Positions 12,814-22,674 of a stretch of 64,000 nucleotides of DNA are shown in pieces; within the stretch, counting starts at the first letter, position 1; the number at the start of each line of letters is the position of its first letter. The stretch is from Candidatus Aminicenantota bacterium. Its GTDB lineage: Bacteria > Acidobacteriota > Aminicenantia > Aminicenantales > Aminicenantaceae. The notes under the pieces are model-generated. The model ran no database searches. It was not told where the DNA came from and saw only the letters and a program-made list of their open reading frames with translations. The stretch lies in the NCBI GenBank assembly GCA_011772495.1, contig WVZL01000006.1:79092-143091 (forward strand), read 5' to 3'. Both the position numbers and the translations under genes were made by a program.

Positions 12814-14112
12814 TTAGCTTAAAAGGCTTCTGGACTTAGCTTCTTTTATGAGCTCAGGCCTGAATTCAGGGTGAGCAATATTAATGAGAGCTGTCGTCCG
12901 TTCCTGTAGATTTTTGCCATGCAGATAGGCAACGCCATATTCAGTAACCACATACATCACATCAGCTCTGGTCGTAACAACTCCAGCCCCTTCCTTCAAG
13001 ATGGGAACGATCCGAGAGATTTCTCCACCCTTGGCTGTGGAGGGAAAAGCAATAATCGGCTTGCCGCCTTTAGAGTGGGCGGCGCCTCGAATGAAATCAA
13101 CCTGTCCACCAAAGCCACTGTAGATAAAGGTCCCGATAGAGTCTGAGCAAACCTGTCCGGTAATATCCACTTCAATGGCAGAATTGATCGCCACCATATT
13201 ATCATTCTGGGAAACATTGAAGGGATGATTCGTATAATCGGTAGGGTGAGCTTCGAAGACAGGGTTATTATCGACATATTCATACAACCTTTGAGAGCCA
13301 AGAAGAAAAGTCAAAATAACCTTGTTGGGATGAAATGTTTTCCTAGCTCCAGTGACGATTCCCTCCTCGATGGCTTCCATCACTCCGTCAGAAACCATCT
13401 CGGTGTGGATTCCCAAATCATTCCTTCCCTTGAGAGCAGAAAGGACAGCGTCAGGGATCCCTCCGATACCCAGCTGTAAGGTTGAACCGTCCTCTATAAG
13501 ATCAGCGATGTGATGACCGATCTTTCTTTCGACTTCAGTGAAAGGTTTCTTCTGAAGCTCAGGCAAGTCCGAAGAAATTTCGACAACTTTATGGACTCTG
13601 GAAACATGAATGAAAGAATCTCCCAGGACACGCGGCATTTTTTCGTTGACCTGAGCAATAACGATATCAGCCTTTTCAGCGGCTGCTTTGGAGGCCAGAA
13701 CCTCGACTCCAAAGCTCATGAATCCATGCTCATCAGGAGGGGAGAGATGCAGCAGAGCCGCATTCAGGGTCATTTGTCCTGAATAGAACAGGTTTGGTAT
13801 TTGATGGAGAAAAATGGGAACATAATCAGCTCGCCCTTCGTTGATGGCTTTTCTGTCTGCTGGTCCCACGAACAGGGAGTTATGTCGAAAATGTCCTTCC
13901 ATCTCAGGTTTGGAAAGAGGGTCTTCTCCTAGCAGGAGGACATGGACCAGCTCGACCTCTTCGAGTTCATCTTTTCGCTCAGCTAAAGCATTCAAAAGAG
14001 TATAGGGAGTAGCAGCATTCCCACTTACATAAACCCTCTGCTGGCTTTTAATCGTGGAGACAGCCTCCTCGGCAGTAACCAGCTTTTTCTTGTAATCATC
14101 TACCCAGGCCAC
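12814..14112 (-). CDS. Acetyl-CoA hydrolase/4-hydroxybutyrate CoA-transferase family enzyme
   Basis: This class I CoA-transferase of about 432 residues exchanges CoA between acyl groups, typically using acetyl-CoA as donor or product. The N-terminal segment (VTAEEAVSTIKSQQRVYVSG) and the GIGGIPDAVL glycine motif are typical. The catalytic glutamate should be the one in GIHTEMVSDG. The C-terminal segment contains GGQVDFIRGA and GGEISRIVPIL. GTG 14112 is preferred as start because AGGTGAGG lies 6 nt upstream; an in-frame GTG at 14124 is possible. It follows the five-subunit oxidoreductase genes by about 90 bp, which fits a role in acid formation during fermentation. The substrate acid is not determined. 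Confidence 0.9.
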   Translation of the reverse strand: MAWVDDYKKKLVTAEEAVSTIKSQQRVYVSGNAATPYTLLNALAERKDELEEVELVHVLLLGEDPLSKPEMEGHFRHNSLFVGPADRKAINEGRADYVPIFLHQIPNLFYSGQMTLNAALLHLSPPDEHGFMSFGVEVLASKAAAEKADIVIAQVNEKMPRVLGDSFIHVSRVHKVVEISSDLPELQKKPFTEVERKIGHHIADLIEDGSTLQLGIGGIPDAVLSALKGRNDLGIHTEMVSDGVMEAIEEGIVTGARKTFHPNKVILTFLLGSQRLYEYVDNNPVFEAHPTDYTNHPFNVSQNDNMVAINSAIEVDITGQVCSDSIGTFIYSGFGGQVDFIRGAAHSKGGKPIIAFPSTAKGGEISRIVPILKEGAGVVTTRADVMYVVTEYGVAYLHGKNLQERTTALINIAHPEFRPELIKEAKSRSLLS

Positions 14113-14200
14113 TATAATCCTCACCTTTTCGTTAGGAGTGAATGATTAATCTTTTAATCCAGCTTTTAAGATTTTTTGCTGAAAAAAGTGACTAAGCAAA

Positions 14201-15736
14201 CTATTTTGTTTTACTAGACTTTTTAGGCTTCTTGTCCTTCTTGGTTTTCCTTAGATACTTATCGATTTCTTCTGCTGCCACTCGAGCATCACCCATAGCT
14301 AGAATAACCGTGGCTCCGCCTCGAATGATATCACCTCCCGCATAGACTCCTTCCATGCTCGTCGCCATGGTGTTCCAATCTACTTCCACATTTCCCCACT
14401 TCCCTACTTCGAGCTGAGGCGTAGTCTTGGGGATTAAAGGATTCGGGCTGTTTCCGATCGCCACCACAACCATATCCACTTCCATGATGAACTCTGATCC
14501 CTCTATAGGTACTGGCCTACGTCGACCAGAGTCATCGGGTTCTCCCAGTTTCATTTTCAGACATTCCATCGCCTTAACTCGGCCGTATTCATCACTGATG
14601 TAGCGGATAGGCGTGGTTAAGAAGTGAAATGCGATTCCTTCCTCCTCAGCATGCTTAACCTCTTCCACTCGGGCAGGCATCTCAACTCGGGAACGACGGT
14701 AGACTATGGTTGACTCTTCAGCTCCCAGTCTCTGAGCTGTCCGAACAGAGTCCATGGCCACGTTACCTCCACCCAAAACAGCCACTCTTCTTCCCATAAA
14801 AACAGGCGTATCGTAGGCAGGAAATTCATAGGCTCTCATGAGATTGACTCGAGTGAGATACTCATTGGCAGAATAGATACCTATCAGATTCTCCCCAGGA
14901 ATCCTCATGAAATTCGGCAAGCCAGCTCCTGTTCCTATAAAAAAAGCATCATACCCATCCTTTTTTAAATCTTCTAGAGTAGCGGATAAACCAACGACAA
15001 AGTTGGTCTTCAACTCGACACCGAGTCTCTCTAAATATTCTACCTCTGCCTGGAGAATGCTCTTGGGCAGCCTGAATTCTGGTATGCCATAGACCAAAAC
15101 TCCGCCAGCAACGTGCAGGGCTTCAAAGATGGTGATTTTGTGGCCTTTCTTTGCCAGATCCCCAGCCACAGTCAAACCTGCGGGCCCGGCTCCGATGATG
15201 GCCGCTTTTTTCCCAGTAGAGGGTGGAATGCGAGGAATAGAAACTTTTCCTTTAAGCCTCTCATAATCCGAGGCAAACCTCTCTAGATTTCCGATGGCCA
15301 CGGAGACACCGGTGGCTTTCATCACCGTACAGGTTAATTCGCACTGGCTCTCTTGAGGACAGACCCGACCGCAAATAGCAGGAAGGCTGTTCGTTTCTTT
15401 CAGTTTAAGAGCACTGGCGATGAATTCACCCTTTTCGATGAGTTTTATGAAACTGGGAATATCTATCCTCACTGGACAACCTAATATGCAAAGAGGGTTG
15501 GCGCAGTCTAAACATCTCTGAGCTTCACGCTGGGCCATCTTTTCGTCCAAGCCGAGGTTGACCTCATCGAAATCTTTGTTCCTGTCTTCCGGCTCCCGCT
15601 CTGGCATTTTCTGGCGAGTTATCTTCATCCTTTCTTTTACGGGAATTGCCTTACGAAGCTCTTTTCGCCAATCTTTGTTGAATTCAGCCTTGAGGAGCTC
15701 TTTGAGCTCGGGATCTAACTTCTGCTTTTCTGCCAT
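14201..15736 (-). CDS. NfnB/L-like (GltA-type) FAD/NADP oxidoreductase subunit
   Basis: This 511-residue flavoprotein is homologous to the small subunit of glutamate synthase and to NfnB (the L subunit). The N-terminal iron-sulfur domain (about residues 75-140) has CLDCANPLCILGCP and CGRVCPQESQCELTC, which supply two [4Fe-4S] clusters. The FAD Rossmann motif is IIGAGPAGLTVAGDL and the NADP(H) Rossmann motif is VAVLGGGNVAMDSVRTA. There is no partner glutamate synthase large subunit; instead it directly follows an NfnA/S-like gene and NuoEFG-like genes. It is therefore best read as the NADP-dependent, FAD-bearing subunit of a multi-subunit bifurcating complex. The lysine-rich tail (KKDKKPKKSSK) is unusual. 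Confidence 0.92.
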   Translation of the reverse strand: MAEKQKLDPELKELLKAEFNKDWRKELRKAIPVKERMKITRQKMPEREPEDRNKDFDEVNLGLDEKMAQREAQRCLDCANPLCILGCPVRIDIPSFIKLIEKGEFIASALKLKETNSLPAICGRVCPQESQCELTCTVMKATGVSVAIGNLERFASDYERLKGKVSIPRIPPSTGKKAAIIGAGPAGLTVAGDLAKKGHKITIFEALHVAGGVLVYGIPEFRLPKSILQAEVEYLERLGVELKTNFVVGLSATLEDLKKDGYDAFFIGTGAGLPNFMRIPGENLIGIYSANEYLTRVNLMRAYEFPAYDTPVFMGRRVAVLGGGNVAMDSVRTAQRLGAEESTIVYRRSRVEMPARVEEVKHAEEEGIAFHFLTTPIRYISDEYGRVKAMECLKMKLGEPDDSGRRRPVPIEGSEFIMEVDMVVVAIGNSPNPLIPKTTPQLEVGKWGNVEVDWNTMATSMEGVYAGGDIIRGGATVILAMGDARVAAEEIDKYLRKTKKDKKPKKSSKTK

Positions 15737-15772
15737 TCTTTACTCTCTTCTCAATGCGTCCCTAGGATCAAA

Positions 15773-16606
15773 TCAGGGAAAATTGTCTCTCTCCCATCTG
15801 CAGAGGGATTGAATTTCATCCTCGAAATAAGACTTCCTCCTGCTGAACAGCTCTTCCCAGTCCACTTTATGACCATCAAAATCAGGGCCATCTACACAGG
15901 CAAATTTCGCCTTGCCATCGATAGTGACTCGACAGGCGCCACACATTCCTGTTCCGTCCACCATGATGGGATTCAGGCTGACTACAGTTTTTATTTTCTG
16001 AGACTTGGTGGCTTCAGAACACGCATACATGAGATAGGTACAGCCAATGGCTACCACTCGGTCAATCTTTTTTTCCTCTTTGATGATTGCTCTGAGTTTC
16101 TTATGGATATAGTCTTTGCAGTTATAGGTACTATCCCGCGCCGAGATGAAATATTTATCACTCACTTCCCTGAGCTTATTCTCCCAGTAAAGAAGGTAAT
16201 TGGCTTTGACATCGATCAAAGAAATAACCCTGTTTCCAGCCTCTTTGAGAGCTCGAGCAATCGGAAAGATAGCCCCGATACCGAAGCATCCTCCTCCACA
16301 GAGGACTGTTCCGTATTTTTTAATCTCGGAGGCCTTTCCCAAGGGCCCCACAAAAACAGGAACCTCGTCTCCCGCCTTAAGAAGGGATAACTTATGAGTG
16401 GAGGTGCCGACGACCATGAACACAGAAACGATTGAACCTTTTTTCTTATCCCAATCAGCTATGGTCAAGGGGATCCTCTCTCCTCTCTCGTCGGGCATGA
16501 CAATGACAAACTGGCCAGGTTGGCATTTTTTGGCGATTTCAGGCGCCTGCACTTCAAGGAGATGAATATTAGGTACCAGCCGTTCTCTTCTTAAAATCTG
16601 AGACAT
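15773..16606 (-). CDS. NfnA/S-like FAD/[2Fe-2S] oxidoreductase subunit
   Basis: This protein of about 277 residues belongs to the ferredoxin-NADP reductase/dihydroorotate-dehydrogenase-B family, as does NfnA. The FAD-binding segment (ERIPLTIADWD) is followed by a nucleotide domain (LCGGGCFGIGAIFPIARAL). The C-terminal [2Fe-2S] site has DGTGMCGACRVTIDG and FACVDGPDFDGHKVDW, which is nearly diagnostic of the NfnA/SudB group. ATG 16606 is chosen because GAGG lies 6 nt upstream and the ATG overlaps the NuoG-like stop as TGATG; a GTG one codon earlier is also possible. It transfers electrons between NAD(H) and the partner flavoprotein. Confidence 0.92.
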   Translation of the reverse strand: MSQILRRERLVPNIHLLEVQAPEIAKKCQPGQFVIVMPDERGERIPLTIADWDKKKGSIVSVFMVVGTSTHKLSLLKAGDEVPVFVGPLGKASEIKKYGTVLCGGGCFGIGAIFPIARALKEAGNRVISLIDVKANYLLYWENKLREVSDKYFISARDSTYNCKDYIHKKLRAIIKEEKKIDRVVAIGCTYLMYACSEATKSQKIKTVVSLNPIMVDGTGMCGACRVTIDGKAKFACVDGPDFDGHKVDWEELFSRRKSYFEDEIQSLCRWERDNFP

Positions 16607-19167
16607 CACTTACCTCTATATATCTTTACTGGGCGCATTTGGAGCGGGAAAGAATCCGAGTCTGACCCTGAAGACAGACGAAACGCCGAAAAATCAGCTT
16701 TTTCATTCAGGAGGAAGCTGGCGACAATGAATCCTATCGGGATAGACTCTGAAATCTTGGCCACACCCTTGATTCTTTTTGAACCTGACCCGACTTCTAT
16801 GAGTTCTCCCTCGCTCAATTTTAGTTTTTCTGCGTCCTCAGGATTGATTCTGATCCATCTGGAATCCCTGATGATTCTCATCCCTTTTATTTCTTGACTC
16901 AGACTCACACTGCGGTAATAGTCCAAGCTGTAATCAAAAAGCAGGTGAAAAGGGATTTCCTTTCTAACCTTGGTCGAGGGGAGTTTGTATTCCAAGGGAA
17001 TGAATTTGCCCTTCTCTTCCTTCTCCTCTTGAATAAACACTTCAATACCTTTTTCAGACAGAGAATCAGAAACAGCAGCCAAACCAGGAACACTTTTCTT
17101 CATTTCCTTGAGGATTTGAGAAGGTTTCTTGTGAGCAAAACCTTGGTATCCCATGCGCTGAGCGAGCTGAGAAACTATCCACCAATCAGGCCTGGCCTCC
17201 CCTAAGGGTTCAATGACTCGGTTAAGCTTCTGGATTCTTCCTTCTAGGTTGACGTAGGTTCCTTCTGTTTCAGCAAAAGTCGTACTCGGAAGAACAGCAT
17301 CAGCCAACTTCATGTTCTCGCTCATGTAGCTATCCTGGATAACGAGGAATCCAGGTTTGTTTTTTTCTAAAGAAGGAAAGGGTCCGGCTAAATAGAGAGC
17401 CTTGATACTCTTCTTTTTGATAGCCTGACTGACCTGATTGAAGTTCAAGCCCGCCTTGAAAGAGCGCCTAATCTCCAACTCTCCTCTTGTGTTGTTCTCA
17501 AGGCTGAGAGGACAGACTTGGGCTTTGGTCAAAAGAGACAAATTCCAGAGAGCGGTCAGGTTGTCTTTGGCACTGGGATGTTGGGTTAAACCGAGGCCGA
17601 AGAGAAAAACCGCAGGTCCGTTCTCCAACATGATACGAGAAGTTGTTTTGAGATCTTCTTCTGAAATTCCAGTGATCTCCGAACACTTGGTCATATCCAT
17701 CTTAGCGAGAGATTTCTTGAAAGATTCAAAACCTTTAATTTTTGATGCGTCCTTCGGTTGCTCTTCATCAAGAAGCATTCTAGAAAGAGAATTAAGAAAA
17801 TAAGAATCTGTTCCTGGCTTGATTCTAATCCATTGAGAAGAGTGCCGGTTCAGACAAACCTCTCGAGGATCAACGATAACGAGTTTAGCCCCTTTTTTGA
17901 CTGCCTCAATGACTGACAGCCCCAACACGGGATGAGAGAGTGTGAGATCAGCGCCTAGGAGAAGAATGATCTTGGCCTGAGAGATATCTTTAACCTTGAA
18001 GTTCAATCTGGGCGAAAGCCCTTTCTCTTGAGTCCAATCCAAATAACAGGCTAAAGGAGAATATCTTGCTGGGTTGTCTATATTTTTTGTTTTCAATCCT
18101 TGTTGCGCAAATTTCTGGATTAGATAGTTCTCTTCGTTCGTCGCTTGAGGGGAAGAAATGACGGCCATCTCATGGCCTTTATATTTTTTAAGTTTTCGGG
18201 CCACGAAATCTAAAGCCACTCCCCAATCGACCTCTTCAAGTTCACCCTTCTTTTTGATTAAAGGCTTGATTATTCTTTGTGGGCTGTAGACAAGATCCTT
18301 CACAGTAAAACGGCCCTTAACACAAGCCTGACCTTGATTGGCTGCTCCATTGGCAGAGGGAACCGAACGCAAGATTCTGCCTCTTTTGGTTTCCACATCC
18401 AGCTCACAACCAAGGCTGCATAAAGGGCAGATGGTTTTCACAGTTTTGTCAGGAAGCCCTTCTGGCCTTATGGCCCTTTCCGCTAAGGAGCCCGTTGGGC
18501 AAACATCGACGCAGGCTCCGCAGAACTGGCAACCAGAGTCAAGAAGAGTTCGGTCCAGAACCGTGCTGACAACTGCCTCGGTTCCTCTGTAGATAAAGGT
18601 AACAGTCGAAGCTCCTCTCACTTCATGGCAGATCCTCACACATCTCCCGCAGAGTATGCAGAGGTTGTAATTGCGGTCGAAAAAAGGATCATCTTTCCGA
18701 ATCTCAAAATTACGGTAAAGAGACGGTAAGCTCATTTCCTTAATGTCCAAGGCTTCCACAACATCCTGAAGCTCACAACGACCGTTGTTAGAGCACAGCA
18801 CGCAGCCAGTGGTTTCCCCGACTTTGCGGATAGTGGATTTGTAGTCATCGCATTGATCTTTCTCGCTGCAGATCAGACAAGCATTAGGGTGTTCAGAAAG
18901 GATTAACTCCAGAATCTGTTTACGCAATTTCTGGATTTTTGGAGTCTTTGTCCGGACCTCCATTCCATCCTCAACATAAGTTCCGCAGGAGGGAGGATAG
19001 CCTCTTCTTCCTTTGATTTCGACAATACACAATCGGCAGCCGCTGAAAGGCGCGAGGCGTGAATGATCACAGAGAGAAGGAATAAAAACATCATTTTCTC
19101 GGGCAACTTCTAGTAATGTTTTCTTGCCCTCGACTTCAATCTCTCTATTATCGATAGTGATTTTCAT
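16606..19167 (-). CDS. NuoG/formate-dehydrogenase-like A subunit of bifurcating complex
   Basis: This protein of about 853 residues is an electron-wiring subunit. From the N-terminus it has a [2Fe-2S] domain (CDHSRLAPFSGCRLC), a His-Cys cluster (HPNACLICSEKDQC), two ferredoxin-type [4Fe-4S] clusters (CILCGRCVRIC, CQFCGACVDVCP), a [4Fe-4S] at the start of the molybdopterin-oxidoreductase fold (CPLCSLGC), the large Mo-type domain and a C-terminal MopB-binding domain. Where catalytic formate dehydrogenases have Cys or Sec followed by His, this protein reads NPARYSPLACYL, so the metal ligand is missing. There is no [FeFe] H-cluster. ATG 19167 gives an ATGA overlap with the upstream gene and starts at the [2Fe-2S] strand (MKITIDNREIEVEG); ATG 19206 is an alternative. 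Confidence 0.9.
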   Translation of the reverse strand: MKITIDNREIEVEGKKTLLEVARENDVFIPSLCDHSRLAPFSGCRLCIVEIKGRRGYPPSCGTYVEDGMEVRTKTPKIQKLRKQILELILSEHPNACLICSEKDQCDDYKSTIRKVGETTGCVLCSNNGRCELQDVVEALDIKEMSLPSLYRNFEIRKDDPFFDRNYNLCILCGRCVRICHEVRGASTVTFIYRGTEAVVSTVLDRTLLDSGCQFCGACVDVCPTGSLAERAIRPEGLPDKTVKTICPLCSLGCELDVETKRGRILRSVPSANGAANQGQACVKGRFTVKDLVYSPQRIIKPLIKKKGELEEVDWGVALDFVARKLKKYKGHEMAVISSPQATNEENYLIQKFAQQGLKTKNIDNPARYSPLACYLDWTQEKGLSPRLNFKVKDISQAKIILLLGADLTLSHPVLGLSVIEAVKKGAKLVIVDPREVCLNRHSSQWIRIKPGTDSYFLNSLSRMLLDEEQPKDASKIKGFESFKKSLAKMDMTKCSEITGISEEDLKTTSRIMLENGPAVFLFGLGLTQHPSAKDNLTALWNLSLLTKAQVCPLSLENNTRGELEIRRSFKAGLNFNQVSQAIKKKSIKALYLAGPFPSLEKNKPGFLVIQDSYMSENMKLADAVLPSTTFAETEGTYVNLEGRIQKLNRVIEPLGEARPDWWIVSQLAQRMGYQGFAHKKPSQILKEMKKSVPGLAAVSDSLSEKGIEVFIQEEKEEKGKFIPLEYKLPSTKVRKEIPFHLLFDYSLDYYRSVSLSQEIKGMRIIRDSRWIRINPEDAEKLKLSEGELIEVGSGSKRIKGVAKISESIPIGFIVASFLLNEKADFSAFRLSSGSDSDSFPLQMRPVKIYRGK

Positions 19168-21080
19168 TTTTTTTCTCGCGCCGATGAGGTCTTTTTTAGT
19201 AACCATTCCTTTTTCTTTCCAGTGACTTTGGAAACAGCCAAGACTTTGGGAGGACAGACATCAAAGCAAGCTCCGCACTTGATACACAACTCTTGGTCAA
19301 TAACATGAACCTTTTTCCTCTCTCCGCTTATGGCTTCAGTCGGACAGTTTTTTAAGCACAAAAGACACCCGACGCACTTCTCGGGTTCTATGTAGTAAGC
19401 AATCAATTCCTTGCATACATAAGCTGGGCAAATCTTTCTTTCGATATGGGCTTCGTATTCATCTCGAAAATAATTGATGGTGGTCAGCACTGGATTGGGA
19501 GCAGTTCCGCCCAATCCGCAGAGAGATCCTGTCTTGACTGTGTTGGACAATTCTTTCAGTTTTTCGATATCTCCTTTTTCCCCTTTACCCTTGGTGATAC
19601 GGGTCAAAACATCGACAATCTGTTTTGTCCCTACCCGGCAAGGAACACACTTCCCACAGGATTCTTCTTGAGTAAATTCGAGAAAATACTTGGCTACATC
19701 AACCATACATGTATTCTCATCCATGACGATCATTCCACCCGAGCCCATCATGGAGCCAACTTCGGTCAGCCTCTCAAAATCAATCGGCAGATCCAACATA
19801 CTGGCAGGGATGCACCCTCCAGAAGGGCCACCTGTTTGAACGGCTTTGAATTTCTTGTTATCTTTGATGCCTCCACCAATTTCATAGATAATTTCTTTAA
19901 GCGTCATCCCCATGGGAACTTCGACCAAACCCGTGTTGTTGATCTTTCCCACCAGAGAAAATATCTTGGTTCCCTTACTCTTCTCGGTTCCTATGCTGGA
20001 GAACCAGTCAGCTCCGTTCTTGATGATATAAGGAACATTGGCCCATGTTTCCACATTATTAATATTCGTAGGCTTGCCCCAAAGGCCCTCTTGAGCTGGA
20101 TAAGGTGGCCTTTGCCTGGGGAAAGCCCGCCTTCCTTCGATAGAAGCCATGAGAGCGGATTCTTCGCCGGAGACAAAGGCTCCTGCTCCCTGGACGACAT
20201 AAATTTTAAAATGGAACTCAGACCCAAGAATTGAATCTCCCAACAAGCCGTAGGCTCTGGCCTGCTGTAAGGCAATGGTTATGTTTTTTACAGCCAGAGG
20301 ATATTCTCTCCGCACATAGATGTATCCTTCTGAGGCACCAATGGCATAGGCTCCGATGACCATGCCCTCTATCACGCTGTGGGGATTTCCCTCAAGAAGG
20401 CTTCGGTCCATGTAGGCACCCGGGTCACCTTCATCAGCATTGCAGATGATATACTTCCCGTCAGAAGAGACTTCACGGCAGACTTCCCACTTTTTCCCGG
20501 CTAGAAATCCTGCCCCTCCTCTTCCTCTCAAACCAGATTTCTTGATTTCCTCGATAACCTTCTCTGAGGTCATATCGAAAAGGACTTTAGAGATAGCTTG
20601 ATAGCCTCCCAGGGCGATATAGTCTTTGATATCCGTGGGATCTAAAAACCCATTGTTCTCGAAGACGATGCGTTCCTGCTTTTTATAAAACGGAACTTCC
20701 TTCTCTAGAATAATTTTTTCCTTTGTTTTTGGATCTGCATAAAGAAGCCTGGGTATGATTTTTTTATTAACGATTGTCTCTGAAATAATTTCCTTGACAT
20801 CTTTCAGTTCTACCCTTTGGTAAAAAATCCCTTCAGGTTGAATGACAACGATCGGTCCCCTCTCACAGAAGCCGTGACAGCCTGTCGTCCTGACATCAAC
20901 AGATTCTTGAAGATTCTCGCTCTCTACTCCTTCCTCAAAGCTTCGGGCAACTTTTAAGCAGCCGTAGGCATGACATCCTGTTCCTCCACAAATAGTGATG
21001 CAGGTCTTCTCAGTTTCTCGGTCTTTTAGAATCTTGGCTCTGATTTCTTCAAACTTTTCTAGAGAAACCACTTTTTTCAT
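19164..21080 (-). CDS. NuoF/HydB-like NADH:FMN iron-sulfur subunit
   Basis: This 638-residue subunit has the four-part layout of HydB/HndC/BfuB. An N-terminal thioredoxin-like [2Fe-2S] domain covers about residues 1-115 (CGGTGCHAYGC, TTGCHGFCERGP). The NADH/FMN domain has GLRGRGGAGFLAG and CNADEGDPGAYMDRSLLEG. The N3-type [4Fe-4S] site is ESCGKCVPCRVGTKQ plus a later CGLGG. A C-terminal double [4Fe-4S] ferredoxin follows (CVGCLLCLKNCP, CIKCGACFDVCP). The Cys/His-rich HIERKICPAYVC just before the ferredoxin matches the extra metal site seen in bifurcating HydB-type subunits and is absent from ordinary NuoF. It overlaps NuoE-like and NuoG-like genes by ATGA. Confidence 0.94.
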   Translation of the reverse strand: MKKVVSLEKFEEIRAKILKDRETEKTCITICGGTGCHAYGCLKVARSFEEGVESENLQESVDVRTTGCHGFCERGPIVVIQPEGIFYQRVELKDVKEIISETIVNKKIIPRLLYADPKTKEKIILEKEVPFYKKQERIVFENNGFLDPTDIKDYIALGGYQAISKVLFDMTSEKVIEEIKKSGLRGRGGAGFLAGKKWEVCREVSSDGKYIICNADEGDPGAYMDRSLLEGNPHSVIEGMVIGAYAIGASEGYIYVRREYPLAVKNITIALQQARAYGLLGDSILGSEFHFKIYVVQGAGAFVSGEESALMASIEGRRAFPRQRPPYPAQEGLWGKPTNINNVETWANVPYIIKNGADWFSSIGTEKSKGTKIFSLVGKINNTGLVEVPMGMTLKEIIYEIGGGIKDNKKFKAVQTGGPSGGCIPASMLDLPIDFERLTEVGSMMGSGGMIVMDENTCMVDVAKYFLEFTQEESCGKCVPCRVGTKQIVDVLTRITKGKGEKGDIEKLKELSNTVKTGSLCGLGGTAPNPVLTTINYFRDEYEAHIERKICPAYVCKELIAYYIEPEKCVGCLLCLKNCPTEAISGERKKVHVIDQELCIKCGACFDVCPPKVLAVSKVTGKKKEWLLKKTSSAREKK

Positions 21081-21553
21081 GATTTAGATTTATTCTCTTT
21101 CGCCGGTTTATATTTTTCGATGAGTTTATCAACTTTACTTATTTTCATTTGTCCATGGTATTCGCCGTCAACTACGACAATAGGCCCTAAAGCACAGGCC
21201 CCAACGCAATTCACTGTTTCCAGAGTGAATAACTTGTCTTTGGTTGTCTCCGTCACCTCAATATCAAATTTTCTTTCTAACTCATCGACAATCCTCGGGG
21301 CGCCTCGAACATGGCAAGCTGTTCCTGTGCAAACAGTAACCAGGTGTTTACCTCTGGGTTCAAGACTAAAACCTTTGTAAAAAGTCAGGACGCCATAGAT
21401 TTCGCTTTCAGAAATCTTGAGGTGCCTGGCAATGTAAGAAATGGTTTGAGGGGGAATATAAGCATATCGGGCCTGAACATGATGAAGAATATGGATCAGG
21501 TTCCTCTGATCATGGTCAAATTCTTCGAGTATCTTTTCGATCTCAGCGCTCAA
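21077..21553 (-). CDS. NuoE/HydC-like [2Fe-2S] subunit
   Basis: This 158-residue thioredoxin-fold subunit carries a [2Fe-2S] cluster (CTGTACHVRGA, then CVGACALGPIV) and an N-terminal helical domain (NLIHILHHVQARYAYIPP). It is the small partner of the NADH:FMN subunit. The start is TTG 21553, which overlaps the alanine dehydrogenase stop as TTGA. A purine-rich GGGAAGAGAG precedes it, and no ATG or GTG occurs early in the frame. The coupling to ald on one side and to the NuoF-like gene on the other argues for a single polycistronic message. Confidence 0.93.
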   Translation of the reverse strand: MSAEIEKILEEFDHDQRNLIHILHHVQARYAYIPPQTISYIARHLKISESEIYGVLTFYKGFSLEPRGKHLVTVCTGTACHVRGAPRIVDELERKFDIEVTETTKDKLFTLETVNCVGACALGPIVVVDGEYHGQMKISKVDKLIEKYKPAKENKSKS

Positions 21554-22674
21554 CTTTCTCTCTTCCCTTGGAATAATTTCTTATAAGCAAGCCCGAATCG
21601 TTCGGCAATATTCTTTTTGGTTAAAGAACCATTATAGGCATAGACTCCTCTCGCTAGGGAAGAATCGCCTTTCAACGCCTGATCAACCCCCAGCTCTCCC
21701 ATTTGAAGCAGATAAGGAGTAACCACATTAGAGAGGACTTTAGTCGATGTTCGGCTCACAGCAGAAGTAATGTTGGGGACACAGTAGTGGGTAATCCCTT
21801 CTTCAACAAAGACAGGGTGCTCTAGGGTTGTTAATCGACTTGTTTCGACACACCCTCCTTGGTCAATGGCCAGGTCTATGATTAAAGAGCCTTTTTTCAT
21901 AGATATGACCATATCTTTGGTGATCATCACCGGAGCCCTCTCCCCAGGCTTTAGCACAGCCCCAATCAGGATGTCGGCAACTTTGGTCATTCTTTCCAGG
22001 TTGTATTTGCTGGCTATGAGAGTAATGACCTTCCCTGAGGTCACCTCTTCCAATTCTCTCAGCTTTTCCATATTGCTGCCTAAAGCAATGGTATGAGCTC
22101 CAGCTCCGAGCATGGCTCTCACAGCGCTCTTCGCAAGGACACCGCTGCCGATGACAACCGCTGTGGCAGGGGGCACACTCACCACGCCACCGATGATCAC
22201 TCCGCTACCCCCCTGGCTGGTCTGGAGATAGTGACCGGATATGACCAGACACATCTGGCCGGCGATTTCACTTAAACTTTCGATAAAAGGGAGGTCTTCA
22301 TTCTGGTCTTGGATTATTTCATAGCCAATAATGATGACGTTTTTTTCAAGGAGCTCTTCGATCAAGGTCTTCTTGGCGATAGCTAGATGATGAAAACCGA
22401 ACAGAACCTGGTCTTTCTTGACCATTCCGCATTCTTCTTGGTTAAGAGGAGAAATGTTCAAAACAACGTCGGAACGACCAAAAACCTCTTCCTTAGTGAA
22501 AACAATATTGGCTCCTTGATTTGCATATTCCTCGTTGGTATAGCCTGCTTTCAAGCCTGCACCTGCCTGAAAATAAACTGTGTTGCCTTTTTCCACTAGA
22601 AAAGATACGCTGCTCGGAGTTAATCCTGCTCTGTTTTCAATCTTATTGCTTTCATTAAGGACACCAACATTCAT
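21550..22674 (-). CDS. ald: Alanine dehydrogenase
   Basis: This 374-residue NAD-dependent enzyme catalyses L-alanine + NAD + water to pyruvate + ammonium + NADH. The N-terminal AlaDh/PNT domain includes ENRAGLTPSSVSFL and the catalytic region GFHHLAIAKKTL. The NAD domain has VVIGSGVLAKSAVRAM followed by GAGAHTIALG. The C-terminal YCVPNITSAVSRTSTKVLSN matches the alanine-dehydrogenase signature better than PntA. It starts with ATG after GAGGAA and is the first gene of the run leading into the NuoE/F/G-NfnA/B-like subunits. Its NADH would be a direct substrate for that complex. Confidence 0.92.
   Translation of the reverse strand: MNVGVLNESNKIENRAGLTPSSVSFLVEKGNTVYFQAGAGLKAGYTNEEYANQGANIVFTKEEVFGRSDVVLNISPLNQEECGMVKKDQVLFGFHHLAIAKKTLIEELLEKNVIIIGYEIIQDQNEDLPFIESLSEIAGQMCLVISGHYLQTSQGGSGVIIGGVVSVPPATAVVIGSGVLAKSAVRAMLGAGAHTIALGSNMEKLRELEEVTSGKVITLIASKYNLERMTKVADILIGAVLKPGERAPVMITKDMVISMKKGSLIIDLAIDQGGCVETSRLTTLEHPVFVEEGITHYCVPNITSAVSRTSTKVLSNVVTPYLLQMGELGVDQALKGDSSLARGVYAYNGSLTKKNIAERFGLAYKKLFQGKRES

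Follow-up and report, generated by a model that had tools for sequence, protein, structure and literature searches.

A 64,000-nucleotide stretch of DNA from a Candidatus Aminicenantota bacterium (contig WVZL01000006.1; hereafter the window) carries on its minus strand, from 21553 to 14201, five open reading frames (ORFs) in the order C-B-A-S-L, which are NuoE/HydC-, HydB-, NuoG/FdhF-, NfnS- and NfnL-like. We lean slightly towards the reading that they encode one five-subunit complex, in which the C-B core, an A subunit with a dead formate dehydrogenase (FDH) domain and the NfnS/NfnL pair would exchange electrons among ferredoxin and reduced nicotinamide adenine dinucleotide and its phosphate (NADH and NADPH), with two bifurcation-competent sites. 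The most economical reading of the chemistry is a link between NADH, NADPH and ferredoxin that makes neither H2 nor formate. The evidence comes from residues of A and NfnS that change together, from bifurcation-type residues in NfnL, from a HydB-type core and from conserved gene order. The host genome assembly (G000) comprises 3.28 Mb in 49 contigs and is 88% complete. The features of the five genes are as follows (aa, amino acids; Sec, selenocysteine).

21077..21553, minus: C, BfuC/HydC/NuoE-like thioredoxin-fold subunit with [2Fe-2S], 158 aa (family models; four-Cys motif at residue 75)
19164..21080, minus: B, BfuB/HydB-like flavin mononucleotide (FMN) subunit, 638 aa; from N to C, [2Fe-2S], FMN/NAD domain, N3 cluster, H-C-C site, 2x[4Fe-4S] ferredoxin domain (family models, PDB-chain scores, residue counts)
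19254..19448, minus: HydB-type signature of B, H545/C551/C556 site plus 8-Cys ferredoxin domain
16606..19167, minus: A (BfuA), NuoG-like Fe-S domain plus FDH-fold domain without catalytic site, 853 aa
18775..18891, minus: tandem cluster motif of A, residues 93-131, H-x3-C-x2-C-x5-C, an insert with Thr112 and Lys115, then G-C-x2-C-x5-C-ELQ
17995..18117, minus: remnant of the FDH catalytic stretch of A, residues 351-391, catalytic Cys/Sec absent (alignment to 6tg9_A)
15773..16609, minus: NfnS-like flavin adenine dinucleotide (FAD)/[2Fe-2S] subunit, 278 aa (PF10418; best PDB chain 5jca_S)
16286..16288, minus: NfnS Cys108, first nucleotide loop, GGC[FY]G replaces GGGVG (alignments)
16040..16042, minus: NfnS Cys190, second nucleotide loop, GC replaces GP (alignments)
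14201..15736, minus: NfnL-like NADPH/FAD subunit with two [4Fe-4S] motifs, 511 aa (5jca_L, 538 bits)
15281..15283, minus: NfnL Glu152, equivalent of the P. furiosus cluster ligand E126 (Lys170 in StnC; alignment; PMC9503767, PMC10482914)
15071..15073, minus: NfnL Arg222, equivalent of NfnB R201, which contacts N5 (alignment; PMC10482914)

Linked changes in NfnS and A

The NfnS of the window shows neither canonical nucleotide loop (GGGVG, GP); its fold is otherwise intact and its [2Fe-2S] ligands are kept. In a structural model, Cys108 and Cys190 are placed where strands 100-106 and 183-187 end. Cys was found in both nucleotide-binding loops in 91/91 loci whose A has Lys115 and in 0/6 loci whose A lacks it; the two characters are concordant in all 97 two-gene loci (91 both, 6 neither). 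L085 and L151, whose A rows are identical in the tree, and L098 and L099 are near-copies among these rows, and L147, on the same contig as L097, is counted in the covariation and adjacency results. NfnS genes with no A gene within the fetched 3-4 kb do not have the Cys pair (8/8). Three genomes (G122, G200 and G231) hold both kinds, an NfnS gene next to A and an additional ordinary NfnSL without the Cys pair. The first Cys occurs also in an AGC[FY]G form. The first loop is not invariant among Nfn-like proteins, as 5vj7_B and L116 also depart from it, without Cys. At least four FDH-active loci, with Nitrospirota, Bacillota and Methanobacteriota labels, carry the NfnS Cys pair among the matches listed. 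With Cys in both nucleotide loops, NfnS has probably ceased to serve NAD+, and its electrons would go to A instead.

A kept the fold of FDH and lost the catalytic site. Its best matches are FDH alpha chains, and several source annotations of A matches read formate dehydrogenase alpha subunit. In the alignment, CARVCHSP of R. capsulatus FDH (6tg9_A) faces PAR..YSP in A, so the catalytic Cys/Sec is absent, and an active formate dehydrogenase was rejected for this reason. The same stretch is variable and has no equivalent Cys in 32 other NfnS-linked loci. The cassette is a warning not to label such A genes as formate dehydrogenase. No H-cluster domain was found in A, since [FeFe]-hydrogenase models hit only its N-terminal Fe-S part (TIGR02512 positions 4-70 of 375). 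This bears out an earlier sequence-only reading of this DNA, in which A was a NuoG/FDH-type protein without an H-cluster. In a tree of 114 A rows, which was built without the tandem-motif and catalytic columns and without L147 (contig identical to L097), 92 FDH-less rows make up one group (local support 99%). L179 and L198, which show no FDH pattern, and the truncated L177 fall outside it. For L120-L199, the FDH site was scored with a pattern and a search for TGA, not by eye.

The tandem second Cx2Cx5C motif is present in 33/33 NfnS-linked A rows of the first set, including the window, and absent in both unlinked A rows. Of these two, L096 has CARLCH, with the catalytic Cys, and L100 has an in-frame TGA inside the A match, where its ORF stops at HCARL, as expected for Sec. 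Where A has the tandem motif, residue 112 is Cys in 10/11 proteins scored as FDH-active, and 93/96 proteins scored as lacking the FDH pattern do not have this Cys; of the three exceptions, L177 is cut by a contig end. Cys112 could be a fourth ligand of the extra A cluster. The extra motif sits at the point of NuoG where the Stn-type enzyme has its fused NADPH domain, and the GltD insert of the Caldicellulosiruptor saccharolyticus Nfn-ABC chain 9bov_A is located where A carries its insert.

Relatives with an FDH Cys/Sec pattern and NfnS on the locus were found in Chloroflexota, Nitrospirota, Bacillota and Methanobacteriota records. In Chloroflexota, the A genes of L157, L160, L168, L185 and L187 have an in-frame TGA, likely for selenocysteine, where FDH has its catalytic residue; NfnS/NfnL adjoin A in L157 and L168. 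Relatives in which the FDH site survives and the gene setting is the same give a natural series that runs from formate-linked enzymes to purely nucleotide-linked ones.

Besides the residues, the gene order is conserved. Among 142 genomes of the host's class, A was found in 114 (E <=1e-60) and NfnS in at least 128 (E <=1e-40). A same-strand NfnS gene comes within 1.5 kb after A in at least 92 of 142 A matches and in at least 85 of the 114 genomes with A. The remaining 50 A matches include 38 that score below 295 bits, and three of the rest (L104, L106 and L111) do have NfnS beside A. When 34 loci were fetched by the A match, A-S-L was contiguous in 32, B stood directly before A in 30, and C was also present in 26. 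L096 and L100 have no NfnS, and in L097 A and NfnS are fused in a single 1144-aa ORF. Among named records, L151 has the order A-S-L-C-B.

At least 80 named-record loci were collected by searching with aligned NfnS-linked A proteins and with patterns that cover part of the A motif; since the query was NfnS-linked, the counts give no estimate of how often such A genes occur without NfnS. After 14 of 80 loci with less than 1.5 kb beyond A were set aside, NfnS came next in 59/66 among the matches listed, that is, in 55/57 with Lys115 and in 4/9 others. Of these 59, NfnL came next after NfnS in 57, and B preceded A in 68/78 loci with upstream room. FDH-less A stands beside Cys-type NfnS under at least 13 phylum labels, and 11 more such loci are unlabelled. 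The labels come from record titles, and all are metagenome-assembled genomes except the strain Leptolinea tardivitalis YMTK-2 (L188). As the gene order is kept across phyla, we rejected a chance neighbourhood. The coupling of S and L to C-B-A, claimed from the window, is thus conserved across phyla and appears once as an A::NfnS gene fusion.

The HydB-type core, NfnL and the locus

Comparison with PDB chains placed B among HydB-type subunits. B scores 867 bits to NiFe-HydB and 392 to the best NuoF, and no NuoF or FDH beta chain exceeds 401; this class assignment rests on the bit scores, not on a tree with reference HydB, StnB and NuoF. B has the feature set of the Bfu family, namely FMN domain, N3-type cluster, Cys/His site and C-terminal 2x[4Fe-4S] domain, and C has the [2Fe-2S] thioredoxin fold. 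The sequence-only reading had pointed to the extra Cys/His site and the double ferredoxin domain of HydB-type subunits. Both are present and are conserved in loci with the NfnS Cys pair: H545/C551/C556 in 77/77 aligned B proteins (541-699 aa) and the 8-Cys domain in 75/77. With the higher score to HydB chains and the ferredoxin domain, B is not a respiratory NuoF, and the respiratory NuoEFG reading was rejected. We take H545/C551/C556 to be the counterpart of the zinc linker site of StnB. The N-terminal [2Fe-2S] motif of B varies, and its first two Cys stand at the window's columns in only 16/77 B proteins. CGGTGC and SGTCG types both occur among the cassettes (L120-L199, L070-L103), even within one family (L070, L072). 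In StnB, the linker site binds zinc (PMC10482914). The genome has a separate NuoF-like gene elsewhere (L005, C49:104655-105926). It carries two in-frame TAG codons within the aligned stretch.

NfnL retains the residues linked to bifurcation. In 85/85 loci that carry the NfnS Cys pair, the window among them, the E126 equivalent is Glu and the bifurcation-type Arg is kept. The GltD domains that are fused to Bfu-type proteins, of which this genome has two, show the Stn-type Lys at the cluster-ligand position in 13/13 scored; the second ORF of L107, the fourteenth, was unscored. One locus, L083, has both a Glu-type NfnL and a Lys-type fused GltD. NfnL is a separate gene, unlike the Stn-type GltD fused into the NuoG-like subunit, in the window and in 32/34 fetched loci.

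Fused GltD domains were seen in other settings. In L083 (377-3643) and L198 (3898-6978), B is fused to a GltD-like domain of the Lys type alongside separate NfnS and NfnL genes. In the host genome, L009 (C25, 7074-16211) encodes HydC, a HydB fused to a Stn-type GltD (1038 aa), a second HydC with a full HydB, and two short HydA-like Fe-S proteins followed by a protein with the glutamate synthase central domain (PF01645); the set resembles a gene cluster for a bifurcating glutamate synthase. L010 (C48, 4016-13799) encodes a protein that has a [4Fe-4S] dicluster domain at its N-terminus, an FAD-domain::HydC fusion, a HydB::GltD whose 1273 aa include a tail of acidic repeats about 250 residues long, and an HdrA-like protein of 1086 aa whose N-terminus is of the HydA type.

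All five ORFs lie where a NuoE-, NuoF-, NuoG-, NfnA- and NfnB-like set had been proposed, and the families agree (NfnA being NfnS, and NfnB being NfnL). A was listed as an ORF at 16606-19206. Its start is likely the ATG at 19167, residue 14 of the listed ORF, because orthologues are mostly about 853 aa. Overlaps of 4 nt join C/B, B/A (from the ATG at 19167) and A/S, and S and L are separated by 36 bp. A scan of promoters and terminators gave 14 promoter-like sites (shuffle mean 14.4) and 20 terminator-like sites (13.3), and none was used. Two neighbours flank the five genes in several families, so the conserved neighbourhood exceeds 14201..21553; neither is proposed as a subunit.

21550..22674, minus: alanine dehydrogenase-like gene, upstream, with a 4-nt overlap with C
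12814..14124, minus: coenzyme A (CoA)-transferase, butyryl-CoA:acetate type, downstream

Proposed electron route and alternatives

In the proposed complex, NADPH would be oxidised at the NfnL flavin, where the Glu and Arg linked to bifurcation are kept. One electron, of low potential, would pass through the two [4Fe-4S] clusters of NfnL to ferredoxin, and the other would pass through the [2Fe-2S] and FAD of NfnS to the extra cluster of A. The NAD port of NfnS has probably been given up and rewired into A. The A chain would carry the electrons on to the FMN of B, the site at which NAD(H) and ferredoxin would react as in HydBC (PMC10482914). In the cell, the direction is expected to be mainly the reverse, confurcating one, in which NADH and reduced ferredoxin give strongly reducing NADPH. 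Physiological potentials are about -280 mV for NADH, -380 for NADPH and -500 for ferredoxin (PMC9304861). By our own estimate from these potentials, serial sites look unfavourable for NADPH oxidation and favourable for making NADPH from NADH and ferredoxin.

Several points weigh against this one-complex proposal. Two bifurcating sites in series are thermodynamically odd in the NADPH-oxidising direction. Independent events of A/NfnS covariation are few; three pairs lie on supported branches, all concordant, with a sign test p of 0.25. The A::NfnS fusion is known from one genome, and L135 and L162 have a Lys115-type A with contig room and no adjoining NfnS. Ordinary NfnS and NfnL adjoin FDH-active A in L157, L168, L172 and L186 (with a single motif in L168 and L172), so adjacency alone is no proof of rewiring. 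That the NfnS Cys residues would block NAD(H) is read from their position alone. The Fe-S part of A (108-128, 150-174 and 180-228) has AlphaFold2 predicted local distance difference test (pLDDT) values below 50, so no interface is visible. The proposal is built on genes and sequences.

It is unlikely, in our judgement, that the operon encodes two enzymes, an ordinary NfnAB transhydrogenase and a BfuABC whose third substrate is handled by A or another protein. NfnSL could act alone, as the Glu and Arg of bifurcating Nfn and the fold and [2Fe-2S] ligands of NfnS are all kept; NfnSL also adjoins FDH-active A genes, and nfn genes lie in various clusters, once with a predicted [FeFe]-hydrogenase (PMC6405883). 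However, two enzymes do not account well for A beside Cys-type NfnS under so many phylum labels, the A::NfnS fusion, NfnS changed only where A has the Lys115-type motif, or the three genomes with an additional ordinary NfnSL. A rather improbable variant keeps the complex and makes the NfnS Cys pair catalytic, as a redox disulfide near FAD or a sulfur/thiol site, with a fourth partner that is not NAD(H). The replacement of Gly and Pro by Cys at two strand ends fits this variant, and NADPH-dependent polysulfide reduction is also known for P. furiosus Nfn1 (PMC5861303), yet the variant leaves unexplained why the Cys pair tracks the A motif and why it occurs with FDH-active A.

The cassette might instead be a five-subunit equivalent of Stn, in which the BfuBC core alone bifurcates and NfnSL only supplies NADPH electrons. 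Both Stn and Nfn-Bfu couple NADPH with NAD+ and ferredoxin (PMC10482914, PMC9304861), and in both a GltD-type protein accompanies BfuABC. We consider this quite improbable, as the cluster ligand of the StnC-type GltD is Lys and an NfnA homologue is missing from Stn (PMC10482914), whereas here the ligand is Glu throughout and NfnS stands beside nearly every listed Lys115-type A. The reading as a bifurcating formate dehydrogenase that is still active, or as an input module of the respiratory NuoEFG kind, is already disfavoured and very improbable; the best A matches and several annotations speak for FDH, while the missing catalytic Cys/Sec, the HydB-type B with its ferredoxin domain and the separate NuoF-like gene on C49 speak against it.

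The one-complex proposal may be extended, tentatively and with more doubt than belief, to a new energy-coupling enzyme class. In such a class, the Nfn flavin and the HydBC FMN/Fe-S site would work in series through a dead FDH, NfnS would not serve NAD+, and the junction would be the NfnS Cys pair and the extra motif of A, possibly with a shared cluster. If this is true, a two-stage confurcator would push NADPH more negative than Nfn or Stn can, and the enzyme would be a widespread redox hub of uncultured anaerobes.

Comparison with known systems

Many partners have been shown or suggested for HydBC-type cores (PMC9304861). Like the Bfu family, HydABC and NiFe-HydABCSL, the cassette has C and B with the BfuB cluster set, and A is its presumed input arm. 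Unlike HydABC and NiFe-HydABCSL, it has no H-cluster or NiFe subunits, and its S and L are NfnS and NfnL. The sequence-only reading had taken HydABCSL of Acetomicrobium for a combination of HydB/C with NfnS/L; this was wrong, as S and L there are NiFe-hydrogenase subunits (PMC8880783, PMC9304861). The added NfnSL module is not among the Type 1-4 Bfu partners in section 5 of PMC9304861. No description of BfuABC with a separate NfnSL was found in the literature searched, whose scope left out the PMC9304861 supplement and most subscription papers. With the NAD+-dependent FDH of the FdsABG type and with Fdh-Bfu, the cassette shares the FDH fold of A, but the catalytic Cys/Sec is lost in the window and in the 92-row clade.

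Further likenesses are to enzymes that link NADPH. Stn and Nfn-Bfu (StnABC of Sporomusa ovata, Nfn-ABC of C. saccharolyticus, 9bov, and Nfn-Bfu of Thermococcus sibiricus) have a HydBC-type core and a GltD-type NADPH module, and Sporomusa Stn has a NuoG-like A with an inactive FdhF domain. Their NADPH/NAD/ferredoxin chemistry is known, and here it is predicted. In Stn, the NADPH module can drive the HydBC core via the NuoG domain; here the corresponding module is itself of a bifurcating type. In StnC, a non-bifurcating GltD with a Lys ligand is fused into the NuoG-like subunit, and Stn has no NfnS homologue (PMC10482914). The cassette has instead a separate Glu-type NfnL, a Cys-pair NfnS and an extra Cys motif in A in place of the GltD insert, and a Stn orthologue was rejected. 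NfnAB/NfnSL share with it the E126 and R201 equivalents of NfnL and the fold and [2Fe-2S] ligands of NfnS; unlike them, the cassette has Cys in the NfnS nucleotide loops, and its genes are tied to BfuABC.

Nfn and Stn have been described as two separate solutions for one transhydrogenation problem (PMC10482914), and the cassette bears sequence hallmarks of both at once. Should the five subunits prove to be a single enzyme, they would offer a test case for the coupling of two bifurcation sites. The tandem A motif, the NfnS Cys pair and the NfnL Glu, none of which the sequence-only reading had noted, together set the cassette apart from the described NADPH-linked Bfu enzyme (Stn/Nfn-Bfu). In summary, the cassette appears to be neither Stn nor plain Nfn, and the reading that fits best is a single complex in which two sites are bifurcation-competent.

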